A stretch of 64,000 nucleotides of DNA from assembly GCF_900142535.1 (NCBI RefSeq), contig NZ_FRBE01000005.1, positions 1 through 64,000 of the forward strand, in the 5' to 3' direction. Positions 5,487 to 58,336 of the stretch are shown in pieces. The notes below the pieces were generated by a model, which saw only the letters and a list, made by a program, of their open reading frames with translations, did not search any database and had not been told where the DNA came from. Source of the stretch: Fibrobacter sp. UWEL. Lineage in GTDB: Bacteria > Fibrobacterota > Fibrobacteria > Fibrobacterales > Fibrobacteraceae. Position 1 is the first letter of the stretch. Each line of letters starts with the position of its first letter. Made by a program: the position numbers and the translations under genes.

Positions 5487-5636
5487 TGGAACAGAAAATG
5501 TAAAACGCATCCTCCAAAAACGTCTGTTTTTACACTAAACGTAAAGAAAATGCCATTTTCAGACAAAAATCGCCAAAAAAATAACAAAAAAAACCCTTAA
5601 CGGCTCTCATGGCAGAGGCTATTTTCTAGCCGCTTG

Positions 5637-5690
5637 ATTCTCTCGCTTGCACCGGTTCCGGTGAGCTACGGCCCTCGAGGCAGGGAGAAT
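5637..5690 (+). promoter_or_regulatory. Possible structured 5' leader of purF
   Basis: ATTCTC (5637-5642) can pair with GAGAAT (5685-5690). Between them is a strong hairpin, CACCGG-TT-CCGGTG (5650-5663), extended by GCT/AGC around a 2-base bulge, and a smaller CCCT/AGGG hairpin. The block ends about 20 bases before the purF ATG at 5711, whose ribosome-binding site is AAAGAGGCG. I could not match it to a riboswitch class I know; an attenuator or translation-control element is an inference. Confidence 0.35.
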
Positions 5691-5710
5691 TTCATTTCCA
5701 AAGAGGCGTT

Positions 5711-26430: not shown

Positions 26431-26528
26431 GGTCCTAGGTCCTGCGCAATGACTATTTGCGGGCAAATCGCCAGGGCGAAAGCAGCAACGGACTTGCGAG
26501 TTTTTATGTGCTCAGGTAACCTAGGATT
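26431..26528 (+). ncRNA. ffs: Signal recognition particle RNA, small bacterial (4.5S) type
   Basis: The RNA scaffold that joins Ffh to target membrane proteins during translation. The sequence folds as one long hairpin with arms of equal length (about 45 bases each). The apical part has the domain IV form: CCAGG, a GC-GAAA-GC tetraloop stem, then AGCA. This corresponds to the conserved asymmetric and symmetric loops that bind Ffh. The ends pair as TCCTAGGT with ACCTAGGA, then CCTG with CAGG, then CGCA with TGTG. A good promoter precedes it and a terminator follows. The conserved loop is slightly divergent from E. coli, so I rely on the fold as well as the motif. Confidence 0.82.
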
Positions 26529-26534
26529 CTTTTT

Positions 26535-48680: not shown

Positions 48681-50096
48681 CTATTCTTCTTTGGCAAGGG
48701 GTTCTTCTAAAATATTTTTGCTTGGAGGCGTATAAGTAAGCCACTGAACCTTCTGTTCTGCATTTTCGGGCAGGTAGACAGCGGTCTCCGTCACATAAGT
48801 CCACCTGGGAGCATCAGATTTTTCCTGAGCAGCAATCACCCTAGGATCACCTGAATACAGAATCATTTCCTGTTCACCATCCGGCAGATCATTTAGACTA
48901 ATCATATCGCAAGTCATGTCGCGAACAAAATGAGATGTACCCTTAAAGCCAACAACCACGCTGTTCACCATACAATTGCTAGACTGATTAGTATCCTGAG
49001 AATCAACAGCAAGCCTTACTCCCATCAAGATGGATGCGGGCTTATGCAAAGTGTCTTCACCCACGTCAAGGGTATCCTTGAGGGATTCAATTTCAGAAGC
49101 CAGGATATAACGGCTTACACCAGACTGGAACACAATATCATCCTGTACCTTACGGAATTCTACGCGGAAGGAATCTTCCGGCACTTCCTTAGGCAAATTG
49201 ATAATCCAGCGACCAAGGCTATCCGTCTTAGTAACCGCAACAAATTCAAGAGAATCACCTTCCGTAAACTTCAGGCCATAAAGGTCAGTAATCACAGCAA
49301 CTTCCACATCTTCACAGGGCTTGCCGTTCTTACAGAAAACCGTACCTGCCAATCTTGCCAAATCCTTAGCAGCTTCTTCAGATTCCTTCACCAGGGAATC
49401 CACTTCCACTTCGGTACTCCAGATGAAAGGACCAATATCGAGAGTGTTGCCAGATTCCACTTCCACCGGAATCTCCCAGCTACGGAAAATCAAGCTGTCG
49501 GCAACACCAGAACTCTGGAGTTTTGCAACAATCTGAGGATCGCCCGGGAAGAATTCAAGCCACCAAGTACCAGCAGGAATCAGCACGCGGAAGCTATCAT
49601 TTGCAAATACGCTTTCATAGAACGGAGTACCCGTCAGGTAAACAGTAAAGTGAGAGCCTACAGAAACATCCGCTTCAGCAACATCTTCATAGTAAAGAAC
49701 ACTGCTAAACACGGCAGCCTTTTCAAGCTTGATGCTATCAAGAACAACAGAATCCTTGAACACAACTTGAGGCATGTAGAAGATTCCTTCCGAAGCAGAA
49801 TCAATCACAGCCAACTGGAACGTATCGGCAATGGCGGAATCGAAGGCGAAAACGCCTGCAGTATCCGTCTTTGCTTCAAACATATCCGGAACGACCAAGG
49901 CTTCATCCGCACTTGCAATGCGAGCCATACGGACAATGGCATTGGAAGCAACCTTACCATCAGCATCACGAACGGTACCGCTTACGGCCACGGTATTTCC
50001 CGTATCAGTAACCGTACCTGCAGTCTTTTCGGTACAGCCAACAAGGACGCCTACAGAGGCGAGCACAAAAAACAGAGGTACAAGCATATTCTTCAT
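48681..50096 (-). CDS. Lipoprotein with carboxypeptidase-regulatory-like domains
   Basis: About 471 residues. The lipobox is VGVLVGC. An N-terminal domain (AVSGTVRDADGKVASNAIVRM ... TDTAGVFAFDS) matches the carboxypeptidase-D regulatory-like beta-sandwich, and a second copy follows at about 235-320 (LAGTVFCKNGKPCEDVEVAV ... TDSLGRWIINLP). The rest is beta-rich, with no enzyme motif. It is encoded 5 bases after the TIGR02147 regulator gene, an arrangement seen repeatedly in Fibrobacter genomes. The regulator may therefore control this surface protein. Confidence 0.75.
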   Translation of the reverse strand: MKNMLVPLFFVLASVGVLVGCTEKTAGTVTDTGNTVAVSGTVRDADGKVASNAIVRMARIASADEALVVPDMFEAKTDTAGVFAFDSAIADTFQLAVIDSASEGIFYMPQVVFKDSVVLDSIKLEKAAVFSSVLYYEDVAEADVSVGSHFTVYLTGTPFYESVFANDSFRVLIPAGTWWLEFFPGDPQIVAKLQSSGVADSLIFRSWEIPVEVESGNTLDIGPFIWSTEVEVDSLVKESEEAAKDLARLAGTVFCKNGKPCEDVEVAVITDLYGLKFTEGDSLEFVAVTKTDSLGRWIINLPKEVPEDSFRVEFRKVQDDIVFQSGVSRYILASEIESLKDTLDVGEDTLHKPASILMGVRLAVDSQDTNQSSNCMVNSVVVGFKGTSHFVRDMTCDMISLNDLPDGEQEMILYSGDPRVIAAQEKSDAPRWTYVTETAVYLPENAEQKVQWLTYTPPSKNILEEPLAKEE

Positions 50097-50101
50097 GTAC
50101 A

Positions 50102-50956
50102 TCATTTTTCATCCTCCTCGGTTTCAGGGGGCAGAGCCACCTTTTCCTTGCTCAGCGGGAAGAACTGAATGTTCATCTGGGCGACCATAGTTTCGCCTTC
50201 GTCAGAACGAACAATATCAACCACTTCCTTGCGGAACAAGTCAATCTTGCTAATAATGCGTTCCAGGCCTTCGGCGGAAACGCTCATTGTCATACAAGAT
50301 ACATTTCTTCGTTCGGTGCTGTAGTGATCTAAAGCATCCTTACCAAGATCTATCATCTGCTTTTGGAACTGATGAACGAATAGCGGAGCAATTTCGGAAC
50401 CGCTGAAGATAGCCTTGTTAACAGAACGATAGCAACCGGTCAGGTCCAGTTCAATAAGGCCGAGAGCCAAGAGCAACTGGATAGCCTGCTTTGCCTGAGG
50501 CAAAGAAATACGGGGATTGAGGAACAGAGCAAGTTCCTGGATATTCTTTTCGCCGATGTTCAAAATGGCGAGAGCTTCACGAGCAGCAACATAATACCAC
50601 TTGCTGTAGTACTCCTGCTGGTTCTTTGTAAGAGACTTGACCGCACTAGGCAGTAGGGCGGACATCTGCTCGAAAATTGCCTGCTTGGAAGCGGCGGTAG
50701 TAGCGTGGGTAAAGTCCACCATCAAGGTGAAGTAACGACCTTCCTTCTCAGTCAGACCAAGAGCAGCAATGAACTTGGGCAACATCTGAGGAGTGAGGGA
50801 CTTTCGGCCACGGATCAAATCCAAATAGAAACCGGAAGAAGAATATCCGGCCTTCTTTGCAAAAGATCTGTAGGAAAAATATCTCTGGACGGACTTACGG
50901 TAGTCATAGTAGTCCTGGAGGTACTTCCTGTAATTATAATATGCGTATACGTTCAT
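50102..50956 (-). CDS. TIGR02147-family regulator-like protein
   Basis: A 284-residue protein of a family named from Fibrobacter succinogenes. It starts NVYAYYNYRKYLQDYYDYRK, then a helix-turn-helix-like segment SYRSFAKKAGYSSSGFYLDLIRGRKSLT (about 28-55). A central helical domain (EGRYFTLMVDF) and a C-terminal segment with SAEGLERI and IVRSDEGE follow. The order suggests DNA binding plus sensing. I chose the ATG at 50956 because the family begins there; the longer frame reaches 51079 but carries the GAACAC boxes. A TATATT box ends 8 bases upstream and no ribosome-binding site is visible. Confidence 0.85.
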   Translation of the reverse strand: MNVYAYYNYRKYLQDYYDYRKSVQRYFSYRSFAKKAGYSSSGFYLDLIRGRKSLTPQMLPKFIAALGLTEKEGRYFTLMVDFTHATTAASKQAIFEQMSALLPSAVKSLTKNQQEYYSKWYYVAAREALAILNIGEKNIQELALFLNPRISLPQAKQAIQLLLALGLIELDLTGCYRSVNKAIFSGSEIAPLFVHQFQKQMIDLGKDALDHYSTERRNVSCMTMSVSAEGLERIISKIDLFRKEVVDIVRSDEGETMVAQMNIQFFPLSKEKVALPPETEEDEK

Positions 50957-50990
50957 CAGGAGTAAATATAATTTTTTCGCGCATTTTTGG

Positions 50991-51156
50991 GAACACTTGA
51001 ATATGTTAAAACGGGGTAAAAATAGGGGAATTTTAGGCCTTTTAGGCCTAGAAAACAGTAGGAGAACAGCAGAGAACACCTAGAGAACACTTTCGGGAAC
51101 ACCTATCAAAAAAAGTATACCACCCTCAAATTTTTTAGGGTATATTTAGGGAACAC
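50991..51156. promoter_or_regulatory. Cluster of GAACAC boxes upstream of the TIGR02147 gene
   Basis: GAACAC or GAACAG occurs at 50991, 51064, 51074, 51085, 51097 and 51151. The middle four are spaced 10, 11 and 12 bases apart, about one helical turn. The box at 50991 overlaps the expected -35 region of the gene. All point the same way, as iterons do. An autoregulatory operator is an inference. Confidence 0.5.
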
Positions 51157-51171
51157 CCAATCCCATCCCTC

Positions 51172-51208
51172 GGACTCTCGCCGACACTCCCGGCGAGAGT
51201 CCTTTTTT
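51172..51208 (+). terminator. Strong plus-strand terminator without an assigned gene
   Basis: GGACTCTCGCCG pairs with CGGCGAGAGTCC around a 7-base loop, followed by six T residues. No plus-strand gene lies upstream within 2.5 kb, so it probably ends a short unannotated RNA or serves as a barrier. Confidence 0.7.
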
Positions 51209-51241
51209 ATACTCAGGGGGTTCCACCCCCTGAAACCCCTA

Positions 51242-51395
51242 GGCACTTGCATTAGCAAGTGCGACGTACGGATTTGACATCACGATTCCTCTGGTTTTGT
51301 AGGGGGCGCACCCCCCTAGACCCCTTGGCACTTGCATTAGCAAGTGCGACGTACGGATTTGACATCACGATTCCTCTGGTTTTGTAGGGGGCGCA
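51242..51395. repeat. Two copies of a 69-base direct repeat
   Basis: Copies start at 51242 and 51327 (period 85) and look identical over 69 bases. Each begins with the hairpin GCACTTGC-ATTA-GCAAGTGC and ends with a GGGGGCGCA block. G-run and C-run hairpins (GGGGG...CCCCC) lie between and before the copies. The whole 484-base spacer from 50957 to 51440 is non-coding. Confidence 0.88.
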
Positions 51396-51440
51396 GCCCC
51401 TGGCTTTTGCAGTTTACATCATTTTATTATCTTTGGGCGC

Positions 51441-52208
51441 ATGGTCAAAGAGTTTTGCTTTCGAGTGCTCCGTTTTATCGGGGTTTTATGCGTGATTTAT
51501 ATTAGCATGGTGTTTTACCTAGCCTTAACGGAAAGGCAAAAGGCATTTCCCCGCGCAATCACTCATACCGAAGCGAACGCAGCTATTGCAGGAAAGGCAA
51601 AGGGTGTATCCTGCACCCTGGAAGACGGCACTGTTCTCGGAGGCTGGGTAATGGGCGACGGGACAACCCCCGTCCTGTTATATTATCCCGATGCCGAAGA
51701 AGACGCAGCCCAGTTTATCGCAGAAGTGGGCGCCCTCCCCAACGCCACCTTAGTCGCATTCAACTACCGCGGTAGCGCCAACAACAAGGGAAACCCCTCC
51801 CAGGAAACATACGAACCCGACGCAAATCAAATCGCACAATGTGCTGCCCAGGTGAACAACGGAATTGCCTATATTGCAGGTCGTGGCACCGGCGCCGTAC
51901 TCGCAGCAAAGCAGGGACTTATTCCAACTTACAATAATTCAAGTTTGATTTTCATCGATCCCGTCTTCAGCATCGCCGACGCAATCTCCAGCAAGTATGG
52001 ATTCCTTTATCCCAAGTTTTTGATTCGCGCAAACGTATCCGTGGAACCCGACCAACTGGAAAAAATTGCAGCCAAATCGACCATCATTTACGACCAAAGC
52101 CAGTTTGAATTAAGGACAAACGAAAATAGTGTGACCTTCGTCACATCCCGTAGAATCTGGCGTAAAGGCAATCCGCTCAAAGAAGTATTTGCGAATTTGA
52201 CGAAATAA
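51441..52208 (+). CDS. Membrane-anchored alpha/beta-hydrolase-fold protein, nucleophile missing
   Basis: A 255-residue protein with one N-terminal transmembrane helix (about 8-27), then an alpha/beta-hydrolase-like domain. The strand-turn motif normally GxSxG is AGRGTGAVLAAKQ, so Gly occupies the nucleophile position. FNYRGSANNKG resembles the oxyanion/NYRG loop. The Asp in FIDPVF may be retained, but no active serine is visible. This suggests a binding or scaffold protein rather than an esterase. A TATCTT box ends 7 bases before the ATG, with no clear ribosome-binding site. Confidence 0.65.
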   Translation: MVKEFCFRVLRFIGVLCVIYISMVFYLALTERQKAFPRAITHTEANAAIAGKAKGVSCTLEDGTVLGGWVMGDGTTPVLLYYPDAEEDAAQFIAEVGALPNATLVAFNYRGSANNKGNPSQETYEPDANQIAQCAAQVNNGIAYIAGRGTGAVLAAKQGLIPTYNNSSLIFIDPVFSIADAISSKYGFLYPKFLIRANVSVEPDQLEKIAAKSTIIYDQSQFELRTNENSVTFVTSRRIWRKGNPLKEVFANLTK

Positions 52209-55721: not shown

Positions 55722-57695
55722 ATGATAAAAGATTATTTCTTGAGGAAACTTAAAGGTCTTCCTAAATTTTTCTGGATTTATGCAGCCGTAATTTTTATAA
55801 CGGAAATTGTCGTGCTTGCACTGCGTCCAGATGAGCCAGGCCTTTATACCTTCTTCCCGCAATTTGCCCCTCTAGTAGCATCCCTCGTATTCCTTCCCTT
55901 CAAAAACATCCGGAGGAACTTTTCCCGCTGGCTCTATACATACAGCCTTCTCTCCTTCATTTTTCTTGCGATAGACTACAACACGTTTAACCATAATGGA
56001 GCTGGCCACGCAGGTTTAATCCATATCGCCACCACATTCCTACCCGCAGGTCTTTTCTGGATTTTCAAGTTCATCTGCTGGAATGTCCGTCGTGTAAAGG
56101 AAAGTGATTCACGTACCGCCCTCATGTTAAGCGTATTTGCCTGGGGATTGTATGCATTCGCGTTTCCTCCCATGCCCTTGGGACCTGCAGCCTTGCTTTT
56201 ACTGGTACCTTGGTTCATCGTACTAAACCGATTCGGTCGTCAGCAGGCTTTATTCGCAACCTTCTGGTCCGGATTTCTATATAACGCCATCAATTATTAC
56301 TGGATTTACAACGTGATGAATGTGGAAACAGCCCCTTCAGGCCTCATCCTGTTCGGTCTGTTCCTGCTCATCGCTTATTTCAGCGCCTATAACGTTCTCG
56401 CCGCATTTATCTATACCATCGTCAAGAACATCCTCATTAAGGGATATCGAATCCTCCTGTGGATTTACCCGATTTTCTATGCGGGTATTGAAATGACACG
56501 CACCCGCGGGGACTTCAGCTTTCCCTGGAGCCATCTGGGATACGTATTCGGTAACCACATTGAATTTTTGCAGTTGCTCCCCTGGGTGGGAATTTTCGGA
56601 TACACCATCCTGGTAGTAACGTCCAACCAGACCGTAGCCATCGCCTTCGAGAAGCTTTCTGCAAAGGGGCTCAAGGACAAGCAGGAACTGAAAAGAACCG
56701 TTCCCGTCTTGAGCATTCCCGCAATCATTCTCCTATCCCTTTTCCTGCAAGGATCCTACGTTCTCTCCAAGCCAGAAGCAGCACCCTTCTATGGGGCTGA
56801 CAACAAGGAAAATCCCTCCGTCGCTCTGGTACAGCCCAGCATTGCACAAGGCGCCAAGTGGAGTAAGGAACGTTTTGAAAATATCGTCAACAAGACCCTT
56901 GGGATGGTGAAGGATAGCGTCGCACCCGAAACCGACTTAATCGTTCTTGCTGAAACCGCCATTCCAGATTATATCCGCAGGCAGCCTAAAGTCATTCGTA
57001 GGTTGCACCGCCTTGCAGACGAAATGCAGGGAAGCATCCTCACAGGAACTCTGGACTATAAGCGAAATGATCCCGGATCCATCCGTAAGTACGACATTTA
57101 CAATTCCGCATTTCTATTTACCCCTCACGACATTTCTTTCCCCCAGCGCTACATCAAGAAACATCTGGTGCCCTTTAGCGAACGAATTCCCTTCGACGAC
57201 ATCTTCCCCATCCTGAACTATGTGGACCTGGGCGAAGGAGACTTTGTTACTGGCAAGGAGACTCCCGTTTACGGTTCCTTCAAGTGGACTCCCTACATCT
57301 GCTATGACGCCATCTTCGGCGACTTGATTCGCGAAGCAATCCGCGAAGGATCTCGTCTAATGGTGAACATCACCAACGACGGTTGGTTCGGCAAGAGCAC
57401 TGCTCCCTACCAGCACATGAACCTCATCCGCTACCGCGCTATCGAAAACGGGATGCCCGTAGCTAGACTTGCAAACTCCGGCGTATCCCTGTTCATTGAC
57501 CAGTATGGACATTACGACCAGAATACGGATATTTTTGTCGATGCAGTCATACAAAGAAAAATGCCCCTCAAGACAAGGGACACTCTCTATAGTCATATTG
57601 GGGATGCTGTGGAAACAGCTTTACTGTGGTTTTTCCTGATTTACGCCATTACAAGCCTTATCTTCTTCTTCAGGAATCGTAAGGCAAGTAATTAG
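55722..57695 (+). CDS. lnt: Apolipoprotein N-acyltransferase (Lnt)
   Basis: The last step of lipoprotein maturation: transfer of an acyl chain to the N-terminal cysteine, at the periplasmic face. The 657-residue protein has about eight transmembrane segments, then a nitrilase-like domain: LIVLAETAIPDYIRR with the Glu, KKHLVPFSERIPF with the Lys, and PYICYDAIFGDLIRE with the catalytic Cys (Cys-Tyr-Asp rather than the commoner CYE). It is about 150 residues longer than E. coli Lnt. The extra length is mainly an N-terminal block with additional transmembrane segments. The 3' end overlaps the convergent gene by 4 bases. Confidence 0.92.
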   Translation: MIKDYFLRKLKGLPKFFWIYAAVIFITEIVVLALRPDEPGLYTFFPQFAPLVASLVFLPFKNIRRNFSRWLYTYSLLSFIFLAIDYNTFNHNGAGHAGLIHIATTFLPAGLFWIFKFICWNVRRVKESDSRTALMLSVFAWGLYAFAFPPMPLGPAALLLLVPWFIVLNRFGRQQALFATFWSGFLYNAINYYWIYNVMNVETAPSGLILFGLFLLIAYFSAYNVLAAFIYTIVKNILIKGYRILLWIYPIFYAGIEMTRTRGDFSFPWSHLGYVFGNHIEFLQLLPWVGIFGYTILVVTSNQTVAIAFEKLSAKGLKDKQELKRTVPVLSIPAIILLSLFLQGSYVLSKPEAAPFYGADNKENPSVALVQPSIAQGAKWSKERFENIVNKTLGMVKDSVAPETDLIVLAETAIPDYIRRQPKVIRRLHRLADEMQGSILTGTLDYKRNDPGSIRKYDIYNSAFLFTPHDISFPQRYIKKHLVPFSERIPFDDIFPILNYVDLGEGDFVTGKETPVYGSFKWTPYICYDAIFGDLIREAIREGSRLMVNITNDGWFGKSTAPYQHMNLIRYRAIENGMPVARLANSGVSLFIDQYGHYDQNTDIFVDAVIQRKMPLKTRDTLYSHIGDAVETALLWFFLIYAITSLIFFFRNRKASN

Positions 57696-58336
57696 AACAA
57701 GAGCATGGGAGGCCAATGTCCGGCCTTGGGTCTTTCCTTAAATTGAGCGTAAGGAAGGAAGTCCTTTAGGCTGTTGGTCATTGCAGGTTTTATCGCCTGA
57801 TCCATCCTTCCATAAAGGACTTTTGTTTCTCCAGAGCCATCAAAAGGAATTTCAGAATTAATCTGATTTTGGGCAAGATAGGCAAGTCCATCCCCTAGAG
57901 CATTGGGAGACATCTTCTTGGCAGCGCCACGCCATTCATCCACCCAGTCTCCAAATTCTTCGTCAAATAATTCCATAAAGGCGTTGAGGAAAGGATCAAC
58001 AGAAGACTTTGTCTGTGTGGCAATAAACATGAGGTTCTGCTGATTCCAGTTATTTTCTTCTGAACAGAAATTCGTGAATGGGGATAGCAAAAGCCAGTTT
58101 TGTTCCTTAGGCCTTTTATCGCTATTCTTCAAAAGAGCTAGAGCTCCAAGACCCCAGCCCACTACATGGGTGGCCGAGTCCATCCCCTCCAGTTCATAAA
58201 GATTGGACAGGTGTGAAATCATGTTTTCATAGGAAACAAAAGTGTGCTCTGCATCAGAGCTCACTTCCATTAGGTCGTCTTCCCAGAGGCTCAAATCGGA
58301 CGCCCAATCCGGTAACCAAATCCACTTTTCGTACAT
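57692..58336 (-). CDS. BioH-like alpha/beta-hydrolase-fold protein, nucleophile missing
   Basis: A 214-residue soluble protein that follows the BioH/pimeloyl-ACP methyl ester esterase order: a short N-terminal LPDWASDLSLWED, the elbow VVGWGLGALALLKN, an acid-loop motif YGRMDQAIKP, and a His in KAGHWPPM. In BioH the elbow reads GWSxG; here it is GWGLG, so the nucleophile serine is Gly. The remaining triad-like positions (Asp in the acid loop and the His) look intact. It may be a binding protein, or a hydrolase with another mechanism. A GAGGT ribosome-binding site precedes the ATG. Confidence 0.7.
   Translation of the reverse strand: MYEKWIWLPDWASDLSLWEDDLMEVSSDAEHTFVSYENMISHLSNLYELEGMDSATHVVGWGLGALALLKNSDKRPKEQNWLLLSPFTNFCSEENNWNQQNLMFIATQTKSSVDPFLNAFMELFDEEFGDWVDEWRGAAKKMSPNALGDGLAYLAQNQINSEIPFDGSGETKVLYGRMDQAIKPAMTNSLKDFLPYAQFKERPKAGHWPPMLLF

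Follow-up and report, generated by a model that had tools for sequence, protein, structure and literature searches.

Regulators paired with a divergently encoded small RNA are familiar from enterobacteria, where OxyR/OxyS, GcvA/GcvB and SgrR/SgrS provide examples. C-rich small RNAs with UCCC motifs, of which there are examples in Staphylococcus and Listeria, reportedly block ribosome-binding sites. SinR of Bacillus subtilis, an XRE repressor, recognizes the box GTTCTYT, which is present in several copies (PMC3163267). The locus described here lies in a 64,000-nucleotide stretch of Fibrobacter sp. UWEL DNA (the window, meaning the whole stretch that was analysed), and resembles the OxyR/OxyS-type pairs in that the genes for a regulator and a predicted small RNA share a divergent control region, the space between them holding conserved boxes that look like binding sites. 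The features are as follows, in window coordinates:

48681–50105, minus strand: lipoprotein gene, with a 4-base stop/start overlap with the regulator gene and a sub-threshold CarboxypepD_reg match
50102–50956, minus strand: TIGR02147 regulator gene, 284 amino acids, with its ATG at 50956–50954
50965–50993, minus strand: regulator promoter, TTCCCA-17-TATATT, from a promoter scan; position conserved
50989–50996, plus strand: box R, GGGAACAC, over the regulator –35
51064–51102, plus strand: box array U, with GAACAG at 51064 and GAACAC at 51074, 51085 and 51097 (steps of 10, 11 and 12)
51141–51146, plus strand: small RNA –10, TATATT, with family consensus TAnnTT at a fixed distance and no conserved –35
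51149–51156, plus strand: box S, GGGAACAC, at the start of the small RNA
51149–51208, plus strand: predicted small RNA gene of about 60 nt, placed by its conserved core and fold; the true start may be 1–4 bases further in
51151–51168, plus strand: near-invariant 5′ segment GAACACCCAATCCCATCC, C-rich and largely single-stranded
51172–51208, plus strand: intrinsic terminator, with a 12-bp stem, a 7-base loop and six T
51441–52208, plus strand: hydrolase-like gene, the usual next gene, with a –10 (TATCTT, 51428–51433) of its own leaderless promoter

An earlier note on this DNA had reported at least six same-orientation copies of GAACAC or GAACAG, four of them 10–12 bases apart, and had called them iteron-like. 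Six copies were located, all on the plus strand (50991, 51064, 51074, 51085, 51097 and 51151), and the four from 51064 to 51097 are spaced as described; with the regulator gene encoded on the minus strand, starting at 50956, the boxes read GTGTTC on the regulator strand. The hexamer is itself common in the window (101 observed compared to 63 expected), so it is the clustering that is unusual, and not the word GAACAC/G. Six boxes within 166 bp of a single strand is the maximum for the window, compared to a maximum of two on the minus strand, and the number exceeds chance insofar as no cluster of more than three arose when the window was simulated 60 times under a first-order Markov model. Across the genome, the pattern GTGTTC-N4-10-GTGTTC gave six matches, two of them within the array, and a backward control pattern gave four. 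The array and the exact R box are each confined to the regulator locus within the whole genome; a genome-wide search for a second array or a regulon found none, the near matches to box R being mostly intragenic. The term iteron-like is apt as a description of tandem spacing, since short repeats in steps of ~11 bp do resemble iterons as generally known, but nothing points to replication. An iteron array or other plasmid or phage replication or partition site is contradicted by the inheritance of a single locus through the family between the same regulator and hydrolase-like genes, a conserved gene order that already speaks against it, and by the lack of an adjoining replication gene, which leaves that origin a negligible probability. 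The copy at 51151, which the earlier note had counted with the others upstream of the regulator, coincides with the start of the separate plus-strand RNA gene predicted here.

The regulator matches TIGR02147 (Fsuc_second) as a full-length member, with 348 bits over residues 1–270 against a cut-off of 50. DUF4423 (PF14394) was assigned to residues 106–268, and HTH_3 was weakly matched at residues 19–70. An AF2 model (mean pLDDT 82.9) places an HTH-type helix bundle at the N-terminus, followed by a winged-helix-like part; all Foldseek matches to the model had E >0.001, and those to HigA and DNA-bound SinR were the clearest ones at the N-terminus. As modeled, the regulator carries an XRE-like helix-turn-helix plus DUF4423. 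The overlap of the copy at 50991 with the regulator –35, claimed earlier, agrees with the promoter scan, in which TTCCCA-17-TATATT spans 50993–50965 on the minus strand. The –10 sits eight bases ahead of the ATG, which suggests that the regulator mRNA is probably leaderless. The lipoprotein had also been named as the partner of the regulator, and this is borne out by the stop/start overlap, consistent with translational coupling, and by an overlap or near-overlap of the same kind in the 77 orthologues examined. The lipoproteins that follow the regulator orthologues (L029–L105) share the sequence GT(V/A)T(D/Q)T(G/E)NT in their mature N-termini, soon after the lipobox cysteine.

A single orthologue of the regulator is present in 78 of 80 genomes of the genus (E ≤ 1e-60) and in 95 of 111 Fibrobacteraceae genomes. 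The upstream layout among these orthologues is fixed, with box R near the ATG, then a U pair, and finally box S furthest from the gene, each kept in position in 90–94 of the 95. Box R (TTTTTGGGAACA; GGGAACA) lies over the –35, 30–36 bp from the ATG, in 88/95, and its GGGAACA is conserved at 94–100% per base across 94 orthologues. The U pair AAAAGAACactttGnGAACACTTTt, the common family core, occurs in 92/95, with a step of 11 bp in 78 and 12 bp in 14; in the window species U is enlarged to four exact boxes. Distances between U and S cluster at 45, 53–57 and 64–67 bp, about one helical turn apart, and phasing between R and U is weak (P about 0.02–0.03, from related species that are not independent). 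In part, the 10.5-bp steps reflect box gain and loss in tandem register together with species kinship. Judged by this distribution, the boxes are ancient in Fibrobacteraceae. The earlier suggestion that they are the binding sites of the regulator gains from (i) their conservation before nearly all orthologues, (ii) their position over the –35, (iii) their helical-turn spacing, and (iv) the XRE-like HTH of the protein; binding itself we infer.

The same boxes could in principle be read by another protein, such as a global regulator or an alternative sigma factor, with the TIGR02147 gene being just one controlled gene. Box R does occupy the place expected of a –35, and neither promoter has the usual conserved –35 element. 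However, a global factor would be expected to have further sites in the genome, whereas the array and exact R box are confined to the regulator locus, and the RNA accompanies the regulator gene across the family; we regard such a factor as unlikely, if still worth bearing in mind.

The plus-strand element has a promoter and an intrinsic terminator of its own, apart from those of its neighbours. The T-run follows the hairpin on the plus strand only, which makes the strand of the small RNA clear, and the fold of the window sequence has an energy of –30.8 kcal/mol (z –6.85). Terminator pairs were taken from folds, a procedure that favours pairing and gives weight to the arm-swap control: among 54 distinct sequences, the first 10 pairs are 98% canonical, compared to a mean of 70% (maximum 76%) for swapped arms. 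Compensatory changes occur at all stem positions in this set. The first 18–20 bases of the RNA are nearly unchanged across Fibrobacteraceae, and in 90 loci, which belong to several genera, every base of GAACACCCAATCCCATCC is 99–100% conserved. An Rfam search of the region found no family at its gathering threshold, the best being rnk_leader at 26.5 bits against 50, and assignment to a known Rfam family was rejected on that basis. Elsewhere in the window, Rfam matches correspond to a Fibro-purF cis-regulatory RNA (5633–5707) and a small SRP RNA (26433–26529). Read from sequence, the element is a separate small RNA gene of ~60 nt, divergent from the regulator and previously unrecorded.

The distribution of the RNA core follows that of the regulator. 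The core is present in 90 of the 95 regulator-bearing genomes, slightly altered in one of them, and is absent from all 16 family genomes that lack the regulator and from other families of the class. The regulator-less set includes a 95%-complete Fibrobacter without regulator or RNA core, consistent with joint loss of the two. In other genera, all 14 core loci inspected (14/14) adjoin a regulator orthologue; the small RNA is thus both divergent from the regulator and co-inherited with it. The exact 18-mer gave 67 matches in 84,980 species genomes, of which 63 fall in Fibrobacter or its close relatives; the other four were put down to chance, having neither boxes nor hairpin. Matches with two mismatches (mostly GGAACACCGAATTCCATCC) were likewise set aside, those inspected lying in a conserved coding-like stretch with no boxes or hairpin. 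Five diverged orthologues are without the exact core (L220, L221, L222, L104 and L105). The first three retain GAACA, a C-rich stretch and the hairpin, and the RNA seems to be lost in L104 and L105. The altered C-rich 5′ ends of L220–L222 (e.g. CCCAAATCCCCAATCCCC), each with a terminator, may be useful for locating an essential seed. Separately, L067 (genome G018) has a broken terminator stem and a non-adjacent hydrolase-like gene, as if rearranged just past the RNA core.

The position of the hydrolase-like gene, which follows on the same strand in 89/95 loci, raises the question of whether the element is a leader with an attenuator of that gene and not a free small RNA; a terminator between a promoter and a gene is, after all, the anatomy of an attenuator. 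Against this, the distance from RNA core to gene ranges from 76 to 704 bp, a –10-like site of the gene's own lies just ahead of its ATG in 81 of the 89 loci, two loci (L144 and L145) retain the RNA but have no such gene within about 2 kb, and the folds show no alternative antiterminator pairing. A leader function accordingly has a low probability, and a separate RNA is the better reading. The hydrolase-like protein has an N-terminal hydrophobic stretch and no match in Pfam or NCBIfam, and its gene order with the small RNA is conserved. Between the two in the window (51217–51386), an 85-base unit containing GCACTTGCATTAGCAAGTGC occurs twice, head to tail, with 92% identity between the copies, and looks like an intergenic repeat of the genome.

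Conservation of GAACAC might also act mainly at the RNA level, with the small RNA bound to a protein through, for instance, mimicry of a 5S rRNA segment (CACCC..TCCCAT.CC). The 5S rRNA of the genome contains GGGTCACACCCGTTCCCATTCCGAACACGG, which resembles the RNA 5′ end. Mimicry would, however, fail to account for boxes R and U, which lie outside the RNA, and divergent versions of the 5′ end (CCCAAATCCCCAATCCCC, TCCAATCCCCAT) retain its C-richness but not the 5S pattern; we give this possibility very little credence.

The genome holds 21 full-length TIGR02147 genes plus one fragment, and the earlier note had treated the box as a candidate motif for the whole family, to be sought as GAACAC clusters ahead of other members. 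None of the remaining 20 full-length paralogues in the genome has an array upstream (0/20), a few having single boxes, and the GAACAC/G box is absent from a second orthologue group, that of L008 (0/30 loci, from 30 genomes). The motif is therefore right for the orthologue group of the regulator and wrong for the TIGR02147 family, as far as upstream sequences tell. Residues near the recognition helix also differ between the orthologue group of the regulator and paralogues such as L005–L009. The loci of the second group (L008 and L299–L327) bear an inverted repeat, TTTTGTATCAT..ATGATACAAAA, both halves of which were found around a TTGAC-like –35 in 24/30 (counted from printed sequences); this is probably the operator of that group. 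The regulator thus belongs to TIGR02147 (Fsuc_second)/DUF4423, with a putative operator that differs from that of the L008 group. Both groups examined have a conserved, group-specific site over their own –35, which speaks for self-regulation being habitual in the family. In addition, L008 and L319 have a GC-rich hairpin and T-run downstream of the promoter and ahead of the start codon; the loop of the hairpin contains GGTTAGGA repeats. The hairpin is a possible attenuator in those two loci only; it was rejected as a family feature because it recurs in just one (L319) of the 29 relatives read.

The reading that we consider likely, and in which we infer the binding, the direction of control and the base-pairing, is that the boxes are operators of the regulator, which would control its own operon and the small RNA, with the RNA pairing in trans via its C-rich 5′ end. 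The regulator would bind GRGAACA boxes about one helical turn apart at R, U and S, and so control both its operon, including the coupled lipoprotein gene, and the divergent ~60-nt small RNA. The conserved –10, the absence of a conserved –35 and the upstream U boxes together suggest that the regulator activates the small RNA, presumably from U boxes ~45–67 bp upstream of S in ~10.5-bp steps. Feedback, by which the regulator would adjust its own expression, is suggested by the position of box R on the –35 of the regulator gene. The small RNA would end at its own terminator and most likely act in trans, its unstructured C-rich 5′ end pairing with G-rich parts of mRNAs, for example ribosome-binding sites.

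Limited searches for a conserved target of the small RNA found none. Fifteen near-complements of the core (CCCAATCCCATCC) occur in the genome, none at a start site. Among start sites in the window there is a single 9-bp match, which lacks conservation. The gene at 57692–58336, with ATTGGGTGT ahead of its start, was discarded as a target because the site is kept only in the nearest relative, as was the lipoprotein start, which ranked 35th of 53 for pairing.

Fibrobacter is among the foremost cellulose degraders in the gut of herbivores, and to our knowledge little is known of its regulation. A literature search found no Fibrobacter small RNA and no paper naming TIGR02147, hence no operator on record there; the divergent regulator/small RNA unit predicted here appears to be new for the TIGR02147 family and, within the literature searched, for Fibrobacter. 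The ~60-nt RNA can be sought immediately in existing RNA-seq data. For one member of a regulator family that is unexplained and numbers 21 full-length copies in the genome, the boxes provide an operator that can be tested, along with a hint that other members have different operators of their own. More tentatively, and with somewhat less than even confidence, TIGR02147 may comprise lineage-expanded, self-regulating one-component regulators with group-specific operators over their own –35 and with their own lipoproteins; the small RNA of the most conserved group, with its near-invariant C-rich seed, would then be a core post-transcriptional regulator of the fibre-degrading Fibrobacteraceae.

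Compared to the OxyR/OxyS-type pairs, the regulator here is a TIGR02147 protein with an XRE-like HTH and DUF4423, is coupled to a lipoprotein, is associated with direct-repeat boxes and occurs in Fibrobacteraceae, and the RNA is only about 60 nt long with one terminator hairpin. The likeness to SinR lies in the XRE-type HTH, in the resemblance of GTTCTYT to TGTTCTCT or TGTTCTTT on the regulator strand, and in the presence of more than two boxes per promoter, with looping suggested. However, SinR binds inverted repeats best, whereas the boxes here share one orientation, R and S reading GTGTTCCC; moreover, just the HTH aligns with SinR (58 columns, rmsd 2.8, E 0.95), with no homology found beyond it, the tetramerisation domain included. 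The likeness of the SinR box to TGTTCTCT is therefore offered as an analogy only. The predicted RNA also exposes CCC/UCCC motifs as the C-rich UCCC small RNAs do, a comparison by motif and not by sequence relation.
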